From: Chloroflexota bacterium
GTDB lineage: Bacteria; Chloroflexota; UBA6077; JACCZL01
Length of the DNA: 64,000 nucleotides
Direction: 5' to 3'
NCBI GenBank assembly: GCA_020850535.1
Contig: JADZEM010000004.1
Location: forward strand, 1 to 64,000
Positions 6,846 to 59,551 of this stretch are shown in pieces. The notes below the pieces were generated by a model. It was not told the origin of the DNA, did not search any database, and saw only the letters and a program-made list of their open reading frames with translations. Position numbers and translations under genes: made by a program. Positions within the stretch are counted from its first letter, which is position 1, and each line of letters starts with the position of its first letter.

Positions 6846-6940
6846 CGTAAGCACCTCCCCGTGCCGGGCCGCCACGCTGACGTCGCCCCGGCCCAACCTG
6901 CCAGCAGAGTCAGCCTCACTTGTAGCAGATCGGGCAGACG

Positions 6941-7024
6941 CGACCCACGACCCACGACCCACGACCCACGACCCACGACCCACGACCCACGACCCACGAC
7001 CCACGACCCACGACCCACGACCCA
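6941..7024. repeat. 12 exact tandem copies of CGACCCA
   Basis: Twelve perfect copies of a 7-base unit fill 84 bases in the divergent spacer between the MBL hydrolase and the dienelactone hydrolase. It is not a CRISPR and lies outside both chosen reading frames. Exact copies suggest recent slippage expansion. Confidence 0.95.
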
Positions 7025-7128
7025 GAAACTCGACACGGCGCGCCCTGCCATCTACCATGCTCTCCAGGCGCGCTGGCCGACGCTCCTGCGCGTCCAATCT
7101 CTCGGCTGGCAACGAGGGGGTTTCTCCG

Positions 7129-28470: not shown

Positions 28471-29613
28471 CTACTGATCCATCACCGAGCCGTCGGCGTG
28501 TAGCCGCGTCCCGACCCAGCGCATCTTGTACGGATGCTTCTCGGCAGCGTCAGGGGCCAGCTCGATGCCGATACCGGGCGCGTCGGGGATGATCAGATAC
28601 CCGTTGCCGTCGTGCACCATCCGCGACTTCACGATCTCGCTCTTGGGCGGCACATCCTCACCGATGGGGTACTCCTGCAACGCGAAGTTCGGCACCGACG
28701 CGGCGATCTGGATGCAGGCCGCCGTGCTGACCGGACTGAGCGGGTTGTGCGGCACCACGCCGACATGCCGGGCCTCGGCCAGCGCCGCGATCTTCTTCGC
28801 CCCGGTGATACCGCCGCACATGCACACGTCCGGCCGGACGTACTGGACGGCGTTGCGGGCCAGCAGCATCTCGAACTCGTAGATAGTGTGCAGCCGCTCG
28901 CCCGTGGCGATCGGAATGTGGATGTTCTCGGCCACCAGCCCCATCATGTCGAAGTTGTCCGGCAGGATCGGGTCTTCGTAGAAGAACGGGTGGTACTGCT
29001 CGATGCCACGCGCCAGCACGATGGCCTCGTGTGGCGTCAGCCGGCGGTGGATCTCGATACAGAGATCGACATCATCTCCGACGGCCTCGCGGTACATCCG
29101 GACGGTGTCGATGGCGTCCCGCATCTTCTGGACGTGGGTCTTCTCATACGGCACGGCACGGTCTTCGTCCAGGAACGGCGTCAGGTGCCCGACCGCCGTG
29201 AACCCCTGGTTCTTGGCATCGACGATGCCCTGCACCAGCTTCTCGGTGGTGTTGCCGAAGACGTGGTAGTAGACGCGCGCCTTGTCGCGGACCTTGCCGC
29301 CGAGCAACTGGTAGACCGGCACGCCGAAGTGCTTGCCGGCGATGTCCCAGAGCGCTATATCGATTGCGCTGAGCGCGCCCATGATCGCCGCGCCACGGAA
29401 ATGGCTGCTGCGGTACATGTACTGCCAGTGGTGCTCGATGCGGAGCGGGTCCTCGCCGACAAGGTACGAGGCAAACTTGTTCACGACCGCTGCCGACGCT
29501 TCGAGATAGCCCCAGGCCCCAGACTCGCCCAGGCCGGTGATTCCGGCGTCGGTGTGCACCTGGACGAACATGTAGCGGTCGATCAGTAGCGGTTCGACTG
29601 CCGTGATCTTCAC
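28471..29613 (-). CDS. enolase-superfamily sugar-acid dehydratase (mandelate racemase type)
   Basis: 380 residues. The capping domain starts MKITAVEPLLIDR. The barrel shows VDLCIEIHRRLTP, FFYEDPILP, TGERL and a catalytic VVPHNPLSPV, the order of metal ligands and His of galactonate dehydratase-like enzymes. The first ligand segment has Glu (EIH) where galactonate dehydratase DgoD has Asp (DFH). It probably dehydrates an aldonate to the 2-keto-3-deoxy acid. Substrate is unassigned. The Ldh2-type gene lies 134 bases downstream on the same strand. Confidence 0.85.
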   Translation of the reverse strand: MKITAVEPLLIDRYMFVQVHTDAGITGLGESGAWGYLEASAAVVNKFASYLVGEDPLRIEHHWQYMYRSSHFRGAAIMGALSAIDIALWDIAGKHFGVPVYQLLGGKVRDKARVYYHVFGNTTEKLVQGIVDAKNQGFTAVGHLTPFLDEDRAVPYEKTHVQKMRDAIDTVRMYREAVGDDVDLCIEIHRRLTPHEAIVLARGIEQYHPFFYEDPILPDNFDMMGLVAENIHIPIATGERLHTIYEFEMLLARNAVQYVRPDVCMCGGITGAKKIAALAEARHVGVVPHNPLSPVSTAACIQIAASVPNFALQEYPIGEDVPPKSEIVKSRMVHDGNGYLIIPDAPGIGIELAPDAAEKHPYKMRWVGTRLHADGSVMDQ

Positions 29614-29703: not shown

Positions 29704-29940
29704 GTCGGTTGCACAGGGCGATTGCATGTTGATGTCGTCGTGCCGCCTCGTCGGGGCCTGAAAGCCCCGCCTACGATCCTGCAGTCGCTGCGCGACGCGC
29801 CAGTCGCACCAGTGCCGGCCGTTCCCGACGAGCGTCGCGCAGCGACTGAATGCGTGTAGGCGGGGGTTTCAACCCCCGACCGCCCGTTCCGTGATGCTTC
29901 GGGTACACCAACGAACATGCAATCGCCCTGGTCGGTTGCA
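29704..29940. mobile_element. MITE-like palindromic element with 10-bp flanking repeats
   Basis: The 217-base unit 29714-29930 begins CAGGGCGATTGCATGTT and ends with its exact inverse. It is flanked on both sides by GTCGGTTGCA (29704-29713 and 29931-29940), as a target-site duplication would be. Internally CAGTCGCTGCGCGACG (29782-29797) has its inverse at 29833-29848, and GTCGGGG...CCCCGCCTAC is mirrored by GTAGGCGGGG...CCCGAC. The whole unit can fold into one long hairpin. It encodes no protein. It sits 5 bases from the stop codon of the neighbouring glycosyltransferase. Confidence 0.8.
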
Positions 29941-29945
29941 GAGCG

Positions 29946-32900
29946 TCAGCGGCCCGGCAGGGCGTAGCGGCGCACGTTCTGGCTGTCGACGTCCACGACG
30001 TACACGCCTTCCGCGCCCGTCGCGATGCCTGTCGACTTCTTCATGCCGCCGAGCGTCCAGAGCACCGCCGGGCCGCCGCCGGCGGGCCGAGCCATGATCG
30101 CCCGCTCCTCCGGCAGCGTCGCCAGCCAGCCGCCGTCCGGCAACACGCCGATGTGCGGCCCGTTGACCGTCAACGAAGGCGGCATGGCCCAGGTCATCAG
30201 GCGCACGCCATCCGGCTCCTGATGCACGATCCGGTTCGCGCCGCCCTCGGCCGCCAGGATCGTGCCATCCGGCAGCAGCGCGCCGCTCGTCGGTTGCGAC
30301 AGGCCCGGCACGACGCGGATGGCTCCATCCACGGCGCGGATCAGCAGCCGGTCGTTGCCGGTGTCGGCGACAACAAGGTCGCCAGCGGCCGTCGTCAGGA
30401 GGCCGCGCGGGCTGTACATCGGGTACTCCGCGAACAGGCGCGCACCGACGGCCCCCTGGTAGCTCATCTCGACCACTGAGCCGGCGCCGGCGTCAGCTAC
30501 GGCCAGCCCGCTCTGGTACACCGCCACGGCGCTCGGCTCCTTGAGCGCCCCTTCCCCGAGCAGCGCTGTGGAGCCGTCCCGGCCGATCCGCACAATCGCC
30601 TTCTTCACGCCATCCGCCACGTAGAGCGTGCCATCGGGTCCGACGGCGATGCCGCGCGGCTGTCCGAGCGCCCCGGCCGGCGACACCACCTGTCCCTCGC
30701 CGAGGTCGACCTTGTCCTGTACCGTCTCGGGCGGCGCGATCGGCGCCACGGCCACCGAGACGCCGTCCGCCGGCGCCGTCGTGGGAGCGGGCAGGTCGGC
30801 GTCCTCAGGCCGCGCCGCGACGGTCCGGTACGCCGGCCACGGCCGGAGCGCCGTCGTCGGGATGACGGCACGTGCACCGCCGGGCGGCTGCCAGAAGGCG
30901 TTGACGAAGGAGAAGCCCAGCGTGTCCAGGAACCGGATACGGACGTCGTGCCAGCCGACGCTCAGTTGCACCTCGCCATCGGCTGAGCCGCCGTTGGCCG
31001 TATTCACCGCCACCTGCTCGCCGTCCACCCAGATCGCGGACGTGCCCAGGCTGTTCACTCCCAGCCGGTAGCGTCCCTCCCGTTCGATCCGCAGCGCGCC
31101 GCTCCACTCCATCGTATAGGGGCGCGCGGTGGGCAGCGTGTGCACGGTCAGATCCACCGTCGGATCGACTTGCTCCTGGATCGGCTCGGCCTTCATGTCC
31201 TCGCCACGGTAGATGCGCGCCAGCAGGCCCGTCGTGCGGACCGGAGCCGCGTTCAACAGGTTGCCGGGGATCGGACGAAACGCCTCGGTCCCGGGCGCCC
31301 ACAGCAGCCGCACCGGCTCCTGCCCCAGCGCGCTGCCGGCCAGCCGCAGCGCGTGATTGCCGCGCGCAAGCTTGACCGCGACCTCGTTGCCGCCCTTCAC
31401 CAGCTCGATGCCGTCGAGCGTCAGCACCGCCGCCGACGGAGCCTCCAGGCGGAAGCGATAGGTGTTGTAGGTCTGAACCGTGAGCGTCGTGCTCCACGAC
31501 GCCTCGAAGGGCGGGGGGATCGGCACGCCCCGGGGCCACTCGTGCACCAGGCCCGACTCGCGCCGCTCGGCGCTGCCCGCCGGCCCCTGGTAGCGCGCGG
31601 CAACGCCCCGCGTCTCCTGCACGATGGCCTGCGGCAGCACGAACCCGTAGCCGACCGTCCCGCCATCGGGCGTCCGCGTGTAGGAGCGCAGCGCCCCAGG
31701 GTACAGCGCCGCGATCCGCTCGGCCACGGCCGGGCGGTCCCCGATGAAGATCGCCGCCTGCGCATCGACAATCGGCAACTGGGTGGCCGTCTCGAACGCC
31801 GCGAACTCGCGCCGCGAAGGATCGGTCCAGCGCACGCTCGGATGCCCGAGCCAGGACGGCTCCAGATACACCTTCATATCTGGCGGCAGTTGGGCGGCCT
31901 GCCGGCCGGCCTCCGTCTGCGGCGACGCGAACTCCAGCCAGGTACGGGTGTCGCGCATCTGCCGCCCGAAGAAGCGGTCGGCGTTGGCGTAGTCGGTGGC
32001 CCCGAGGATCAGCACGACGAGGCTCGCGGTGAGCACCGGCCCCAGGCGGGCCACTGTAAACCCGCCGCGCCCGCTCGGGAGTCGCCGCGACACGTCGTCC
32101 AGCCGCTCCCACAACAGCGCCAGCGGCAGTGATGCCAGCAGCACGGCGGGGACGATCGCACCGATAGCCCGGTGGCTCTGTGGCGCTTCCCAGGTGATCG
32201 AGAAGATGCCGCCGGCCAGCGCGGCCGGAATCCAGGAGAGGACAATCGCCTGTTCCAGCCGCCAGAACCGCGACAGCGACATCGCCAGCCCCAGCACGAC
32301 GAGGCCGCCGGTGACGGCGTCGAGCATGGGACGCCCCGACCAGTTGTGGCGGCCATTCGGATCGCCACGGACGTGGAACATCATCAGGTGTGCGCGCACG
32401 TTGTCGATCAGCGGGGCATAGCTCCCGGCTGAGGCGACCTCGTTGAAGACGCTGACCGTGCCCGCCCGCGCGCTGAACTGGCCCCAGTTGGTGACGGCGT
32501 AGAATCCGAACGGGCCGGCCGCCAGCAGGAACCCGAGCGCGAACAGCGCCATCACGGCGATGGTTCGTCGTAGCTCTCGGAAGCGCGTGGCCAGCACGAA
32601 CTGACCCGCGCCAACGGCCAGCACGAACGGCATCAACTGGCTGGTGTAGTAGAAGTACAGGCCGGCTCCCCCGACGACGCCCGCCAGGGCCAGCAGGTAG
32701 CCGCTCCGACGCCGCACCCCGACCACGAAGACGGCGGCGGCGAGCGTGTCGCAGGTCAGTGAGAGAACGGCGGGCAGCGCGACGCGGCTGAAGTTCAGGT
32801 GCCAGACCAGCGCCACGAGCAGCCCGGCCGCGACCACGCCAGCACGACGCCCGTACAACACCCGTCCCAACAGGTACACGGCAGCGATGCCGAGCGCGCC

Positions 32901-33755
32901 GCCAACCGCCACCGGCAGCCGCAGCGTGAGCGGATCGCGGCCGAAGATGGGGATCAGCGTCATGATGAAGTACCAAAGGCCAGTCGGCTCCTGGAGGATG
33001 CCCGCGGCGAAGATCGGGCGATAGCCCGGCTCGGCGATCATCCGCAGCGCCTCGATGCCGCGCTGCGTTTCGTCGAACCAGAGTCCCCGCGGGATGGCGT
33101 CGATGTGCCAGAGGCGCAGGAACAGGCCGACCGCTGTCAGCCCGACAACCCAGCGCGTATCGGCCAGATCCCAGTCAGGGACGATCCGGCGCAGTGAGGG
33201 CCGCGTGAGCCGCCACAGCCCGACCAGGAAGACGGCGCACGCCGCGATGTGCAGCAGCCACGCGACCGTCAACAGCCGCCCGACCCAGAACAGCCCGAGG
33301 CAGGCGACTTCGAGCGCCAGCCCGACGACGACCGTCAATACCGCCGCGCGGGCCGGCCCTGGCCGGCCGCTTTCGGCCGGGTCGGAGTCGGCGTCCGCCG
33401 TGGCCGGCGCGGCTGTCCACCCCAGGCCCGCCAGCGAGAGCAGTCCGAACGCCGCCCCGACCGCCAGCAGCCACCAGAGCGCGGCCAGGTCGGTTGACTC
33501 GGTCCAGAGGCGGCCGGCGAGGTAGATGCTGCCGCCGGCCAGGACGCTCCCCAGCAGCAGGATGGCGGACGGCAGCGCGCCAGCCGACACTGGGCCAGCC
33601 AACCTGTCACGAGCCGACATCTGGCCGACCGACGGTCCCGCGCTCGCAGGACCGCTGGTGCGTCTCGGGCGCTCGCGCAGGTACAGGGCAGCGATCAGCA
33701 ACGCCACGGCGCCGCCAGCCGCCAGGTACCCGCCGATGCCTACGATCTCGTTCAT
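29946..33755 (-). CDS. GT-C (PMT/ArnT-like) membrane protein fused to PA14-like and NHL regions
   Basis: 1269 residues. The N-terminal ~620 residues hold about a dozen helices. The first large loop carries [10 protein letters not shown] (Asp228-Glu229), the acidic pair used for catalysis in PMT/ArnT-type glycosyltransferases. Residues ~700-990 contain two beta-rich PA14-like units ([40 protein letters not shown]). The last ~230 residues repeat [15 protein letters not shown]-type NHL propeller blades. It probably moves a sugar from a polyprenyl-phosphate donor outside the membrane. The extracellular modules may bind glycans. Confidence 0.8.
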
Positions 33756-59381: not shown

Positions 59382-59428
59382 TCACTCCCACTGGCGTTCA
59401 GTGTGTCACGCGTCGCGCTTCCGTACCA

Positions 59429-59481
59429 CGAGCGTCAGCGAGTGGACCCGAATGGTTGTAGGTCCGGCTCGCTGACGCTCG
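59429..59481. repeat. 14-bp inverted repeat, hairpin element
   Basis: CGAGCGTCAGCGAG (59429-59442) is inverted at 59468-59481, with an inner GGACC/GGTCC pair and weak pairing outside. Downstream, GGGTTTCAACCTCCGAC (59515-59531) nearly matches GGGTTTCAACCCCCGAC of the MITE-like element at 29864-29880, so the two may be related. Confidence 0.6.
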
Positions 59482-59551
59482 CGGTGCGGATGGCGTCCTA
59501 TCTGAACGGCATGCGGGTTTCAACCTCCGACGACCCCGCACAGTACGACAA

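Follow-up and report, generated by a model that had tools for sequence, protein, structure and literature searches.

The window, the whole 64-kb stretch of DNA that was analysed, contains a 217-bp element at positions 29714-29930. The element lies between two minus-strand open reading frames (ORFs), beginning 15 bp past the stop of one (33755-29946) and leaving 100 bp to the start of the next. As the initial annotation had described, it is a palindrome directly after a stop codon, with perfect 17-bp terminal inverted repeats (TIRs; 17/17): positions 29714-29730 read CAGGGCGATTGCATGTT, and 29914-29930 is the exact reverse complement of this sequence. The mirrored internal arms (29750-29798 and 29832-29880) are 84% complementary. 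The identical flanks that had also been noticed are GTCGGTTGCA at both 29704-29713 and 29931-29940 (10/10 match). No ORF of at least 100 aa was found within the element. The arms were the first-listed inverted pair across the entire window, and the TIR occurred just twice in the 64 kb, both times at this element. In a different part of the window, the 7-bp unit CGACCCA is repeated in tandem at positions 6927-7038. The features of the locus are as follows.

28471-29613, minus strand: neighbouring ORF of 380 aa that by eye resembles an enolase-superfamily dehydratase and starts 100 bp from the element
29704-29713, no strand: left copy of the target duplication, GTCGGTTGCA (flank comparison)
29714-29930, plus strand: full-length non-coding MITE of 217 bp (TIRs, no ORF of at least 100 aa)
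29714-29730, plus strand: left TIR, CAGGGCGATTGCATGTT, whose core CAGGGCGATTGCAT is common to ISAs1-family IS
29750-29774, minus strand: REP-like hairpin 1, read on the minus strand as GTAGGCGGGGCTTTCAGGCCCCGAC, GTAG tag inward
29783-29797, plus strand: conserved inner stem around GTCGCTGCGCGACG (base-frequency profile of the copies)
29832-29846, plus strand: conserved inner stem, mirror partner, around CGTCGCGCAGCGAC (base-frequency profile of the copies)
29856-29880, plus strand: REP-like hairpin 2, GTAGGCGGGGGTTTCAACCCCCGAC, GTAG tag inward
29914-29930, minus strand: right TIR, exact reverse complement of the left TIR
29931-29940, no strand: right copy of the target duplication, GTCGGTTGCA (flank comparison)
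29946-33755, minus strand: neighbouring ORF of 1269 aa, membrane/glycosyltransferase-like (by eye), stop 15 bp from the element

The draft genome surveyed comprises 7.65 Mb in 227 contigs and is 96% complete. The 17-bp end was found 684 times genome-wide with at most 2 mismatches (347 forward and 337 reverse), against 0 matches for a reversed control pattern, thereby indicating that the palindrome in the window is far beyond chance. Together with 388 + 384 genome-wide matches to the REP-like core hairpin, the 684 ends give an estimate of about 350 copies. In addition, we examined a 1.48-Mb sample, part of which was picked for known copies and in which contigs C187, C135, C13, C143, and C4 were covered essentially whole. 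A profile from full-length copies showed 175 full or partial matches at 119 loci in this sample. Copies occurred singly (monomers), as 108-bp forms with a collapsed core, and as head-to-tail dimers or trimers. Full-length copies showed a median identity of 93% to the consensus. The duplications flanking the copies (TSDs) showed a mismatch of about 5.6% per pair of sites, whereas the divergence of copies from the consensus amounted to 13%; the divergence of the family is therefore mostly older than insertion. The insertion in the window had been called recent; its TSD is intact, but the copy is 91.2% identical to the family consensus. Many contigs start or finish inside the element, often in a tandem array (for example C15, C18, C19, C20, C25, C27, C39, C41, C42, and C43), and the family therefore probably limits the draft assembly.

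Perfect 10-bp TSDs of varied sequence were present at 28 loci. When the flanks of copies were joined at one TSD copy and sought in the 1.48-Mb sample, paralogous sites that lack the element and hold a single target copy were found for other members of the family, at 59410-59510 of the window for the single copy C3:17323 and at C135:4939-5111 for both the dimer C142:33828-34271 and the single copy C143:92248. Such sites could be found because some copies had inserted into other dispersed repeats. These landing sites (window 59410-59510 and C135:4939-5111) belong to other dispersed repeat families, for example those with GTCATCCCGAGCGGAACGAGC motifs, and the dimer and the single copy were inserted at an identical position of one dispersed repeat of the C135:4939-5111 type. 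No copies were found in 60 genomes of relatives beyond one 24-bp match at E=9e-4, and a search of 300 phylum genomes for the core pattern gave only three 2-mismatch matches, at chance level. Judged by its sequence, the element is a MITE: it is short and non-coding, with TIRs, a TSD of constant length, dispersed copies, and empty paralogous sites. The proposal of a nonautonomous mobile insertion, and the searches for other copies and empty sites suggested along with it, were thus borne out by the 684 TIRs, the 119 loci, the locus-specific 10-bp TSDs, and the paralogous sites of other members.

All of the TSD-supported copies (37/37) were intergenic, although a crude codon-usage gene caller marked about 82% of the sequence as coding. 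The initial annotation had also allowed that the element acts as a terminator or structured RNA. A non-mobile regulatory feature that arose or was kept at this gene end, be it a transcription terminator, an attenuator, or a structured RNA, would suit the position 15 bp past a stop codon, the low minor-base frequency in the stems (1-4%, against 15-24% in the subterminal regions and loop around them), and the covariation of the local REP-like hairpins. However, this explanation is very improbable in view of about 350 copies with locus-specific TSDs and empty paralogous sites. The gaps that hold copies were convergent in 9 cases, divergent in 13, and co-directional in 15, and this lack of a convergent excess gives no support from placement, although conserved local hairpins exist. 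An Rfam search showed no family near threshold, and the core was lacking in the 300 phylum relatives save the three chance-level matches. A terminator or RNA role is not supported as the primary nature of the element, and a secondary regulatory effect could still occur at some sites.

The 17-bp end was scanned through the genome collection, which led to a Chloroflexota contig (L067). The 1256-bp IS at L067/L196 has an identical 17-bp left end and encodes an ISAs1 transposase (NCBIfam NF033564, E=4e-119). This near-intact IS lies in a genome that is related to that of the window at the family level (G001:C70), and it showed no visible TSD. In the window's own genome, a decayed ISAs1 was found at C136:21107-27873 (L081 608-7373), with ends CAGGGCGATTGCAT and CAGGGGGATTGCAT and an interruption by an insert of about 5.5 kb, and a second trace was an N-terminal fragment at C187:34933-35247. 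In the C136 insert, a reverse transcriptase of the group II intron type was recognised by eye, as was a serine recombinase. Only decayed copies were seen in the 96%-complete draft, with no intact ISAs1 transposase; an intact copy may be absent from this assembly of 227 contigs. Two other candidates were rejected. The matches to DDE_Tnp_1 (PF01609) in the own genome, the C136 copies excepted, lack matching ends, and a 1.26-kb TIR pair of Salinivenus (L042) showed no transposase between its ends and was regarded as a chance pairing.

The 10-bp length of the TSD was tested independently on plasmid ISAs1 elements. Those of Thiodictyon, Pseudomonas fulva (ISPa60), and Sinorhizobium showed CAGGG-type ends with ATCGCAT and perfect 10-bp TSDs, as in the window family. 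For ISKpn31, ISKpn9, ISAs12, and Nostoc, no ISAs1-type ends were found by the script within its search span, and the Gloeothece ISAs1 showed 18/18 matching ends (CAGGGCAAACGCATCTAA) but no duplication. Small elements with ISAs1-like ends and 10-11-bp TSDs were found in Salinivenus and on other Bacteroidetes contigs (L059 2040-2244 and 2955-3199, L063 42-219, L065 3215-3387, and L066 5602-5848), indicating that ISAs1-type MITEs occur beyond this genome. ISAs1 is most likely the mobilising family, which is consistent with the earlier suggestions that an IS with the same ends should be sought and that a 10-bp duplication would point to the transposase. For this exact genome, whose own ISAs1 copies were found decayed, we infer the identity of the transposase. 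As measured here, ISAs1-family IS (ISPa60 and related plasmid copies) have the same type of end, CAGGGC(G/A)AT(T/C)GCAT, and a 10-bp TSD. In contrast to them, the window MITE has a length of 217 bp and lacks a transposase gene, and it shares only the terminal 14-17 bp with the IS examined.

Inside these ends, two GTAG-tagged REP-like stem-loops (hairpins 1 and 2) form the core as an inverted doublet. The stems of hairpin 1 and of the inner hairpins showed a minor-base frequency of 1-4%, whether all copies or only the TSD-bearing singles were counted, and the subterminal regions, the central loop, and the 134-141 segment showed 11-24%. The TSD mismatch of 5.6% per pair of sites corresponds to about 2.8% per lineage since insertion. 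The variation of the stems is similar to this value, thereby indicating that the source copies hardly differed in their stems. Hairpin 2 varied more (8-9%) because it occurs in two main forms, GGGGACTTCAGTCCCC and GGGGGTTTCAACCCCC, each of which keeps both variable pairs. The local REP-like hairpins covary, with covariation counts that reflect few ancestral events. A conserved long-range pairing of the two arms was rejected, as its covariation was not above that of shuffles and only the local hairpins covaried. The conservation of hairpins where only the ends should be needed raises the question of whether they aid transposition or spare the host.

REP sequences and REPINs are GTAG-tagged stem-loops in inverted pairs, with stems better conserved than spacers (PMC3116915, PMC3733652). 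The core matches them in its inverted GTAG-tagged pair and its conserved stems; however, it lies inside ISAs1-type TIRs with TSDs, no RAYT gene was found, and free-standing copies are almost lacking. If the core were a genuine REPIN mobilised by a RAYT (Y1) transposase, with the ISAs1-like ends being incidental, this would account for the conserved doublet and for the two standalone cores bounded at REP ends in the 1.48 Mb (C13:119276-119411 and C43:15558-15689). These two full cores stand against about 100 full-length copies inside TIRs, which does not amount to independent dispersal of the core. In addition, a loose REP pattern showed 234 matches in elements and 5 outside, the latter mostly due to chance, and the 10-bp TSDs border the TIRs rather than the REPs. 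Some 108-bp forms without the doublet also bear TSDs with one or two mismatches. A Y1 transposase (PF01797) showed no match in the own genome, whereas 5 of 14 control genomes were positive, and on this account the core was not filed as a REPIN. A RAYT-driven origin is thus very unlikely. The 108-bp forms are either an ancestor without the doublet or the result of a collapse between its two hairpins, and at least one of them, in C25, resembles a recent collapse of a consensus-like copy.

At many loci, two or three copies were arranged head to tail with a spacer of usually exactly 10 bp (217+10+217). About a dozen dimers showed outer 10-bp TSDs with 0-1 mismatch that were different at each locus. 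The dimer spacer ATGCTGCTAC or a close variant was found again at many loci, and rarer spacers (AGTCACGAAC, CGGTCACG.G, AGCGAGGGGG, and GAGGGCAGCGT) occurred at few loci each. The outer TSDs vary while the spacer recurs, indicating that dimers transposed as units. On the most parsimonious reading, the spacer is a fossil of the founding copy's target duplication, and the pair later moved as one. A fused dimer of 412 bp, in which the spacer and the initial 22 bp of the second copy are missing, is bounded by the perfect TSD TCTGCCATCA (C38:7841-8252), indicating that this form also moved. Among 39 dimer junctions, the terminal CAGGG/CCCTG was intact at 9 inner left ends and at 38 inner right ends, although these junctions are not independent and represent about five founder types with a damaged inner left end and about four to five intact types. 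The damaged forms were CAGTG, CGGAG, CAGGA, a 22-bp deletion, and a 26-bp deletion. At the outer ends of the dimers, the same motif was intact in 25/29 cases on the left and in 25/28 on the right.

Dimers could originate when a new copy inserts flush beside an existing one, in which case the 10 bp between them would be the TSD of the older copy. We infer this mode of formation from the arrangement of the copies. Once the inner left end was mutated or deleted, the pair would be used as a single transposon via its outer ends. Local duplication by slippage or unequal exchange between the 10-bp TSDs, instead of neighbour insertion, is a less probable origin of the dimers, though one to be kept in mind. 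The usual spacer length equals that of the TSD, as expected from slippage, and with the inner left end set aside, the consensus sequences of copies A and B in the ATGCTGCTAC dimers differed at no more than two polymorphic sites. However, left-end bases of copy B in these dimers (positions 7, 10, and 20-22) recur in other copies of the family, which argues that the two copies differed, and no dimer with a spacer matching its own outer TSD was found in the 1.48-Mb sample. The later spread of the dimers as a unit holds under neighbour insertion and local duplication alike.

Tandem copies with a fixed short spacer are known from IS30, in which head-to-tail copies with a 2-bp spacer arise from joining or from insertion beside an existing end, and in which intact abutted junctions are reactive and the dimers dissolve (PMC9333248). 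The dimers of the window family have a similarly fixed spacer, of 10 bp instead of 2 bp; in contrast to those of IS30, they are non-autonomous and occur at many loci, mostly with one abutted end disabled. By analogy with the reactive abutted ends of IS30, a dimer that has lost one of these ends should be more stable. The literature cited here contained nothing on the chemistry of ISAs1 junctions. That it is mainly the inner left end which is lost offers a testable sign of reactive abutted ends in ISAs1. Tn3-derived TIMEs have Tn3-family ends of 38 bp, a TSD of 5-6 bp, and cargo between copies (PMC4133298). They are likewise miniature, with ends able to mobilise larger composite units, whereas the composite here consists of two abutting copies of one element. 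MITEAba12 is a short non-coding MITE whose similarity to its parent ISAba12 is confined to the TIRs and which has the TSD length of the parent (PMC6382973). The window family is alike in its TIR-only similarity to an IS and in its TSD length, but it has a far higher copy number within a single genome, a REP-like core, and dimers that transpose as units. The word 'tandem' does not occur in the MITEAba12 paper, and none of 'tandem', 'dimer', or 'ISAs1' appears in a review of prokaryotic MITEs from 2024 (PMC10969869).

As far as sequence comparison can tell, the element is of a known kind, a MITE, though of unusual architecture, and its mobilising family has been identified as ISAs1. The 217-bp unit consists of short ISAs1-type ends surrounding the inverted doublet of GTAG-tagged REP-like hairpins. 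An ISAs1-family DDE transposase would bind the CAGGGCGATTGCAT ends in trans and cut with a 10-bp stagger, yielding the 10-bp TSD, and the unit would thereby have multiplied to its about 350 copies in the intergenic DNA of this Chloroflexota genome. This account of a MITE with a hairpin core, moved in trans and forming dimers via flush insertion, is very probably correct. A further proposal, which we offer tentatively and consider somewhat short of an even chance, is that a REP doublet whose own transposase was lost became the captured core of an ISAs1 MITE and now spreads with it. By inserting next to itself again and again, with the inner left end then disabled, this MITE would form larger transposons, and the dimers would be new stable mobile units carrying a 10-bp fossil of the founding event. 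The dimers that moved as units, the decay of their inner left ends, and the hairpin-doublet core go beyond the initial annotation. The 10-bp spacers could serve as barcodes of single tandem-forming events, by which the birth and spread of a composite may be traced in one genome. In one copy of the family, at C143:84791-85109, another long palindrome with abundant CCCTCACCCCCCGGCC motifs takes the place of the core.
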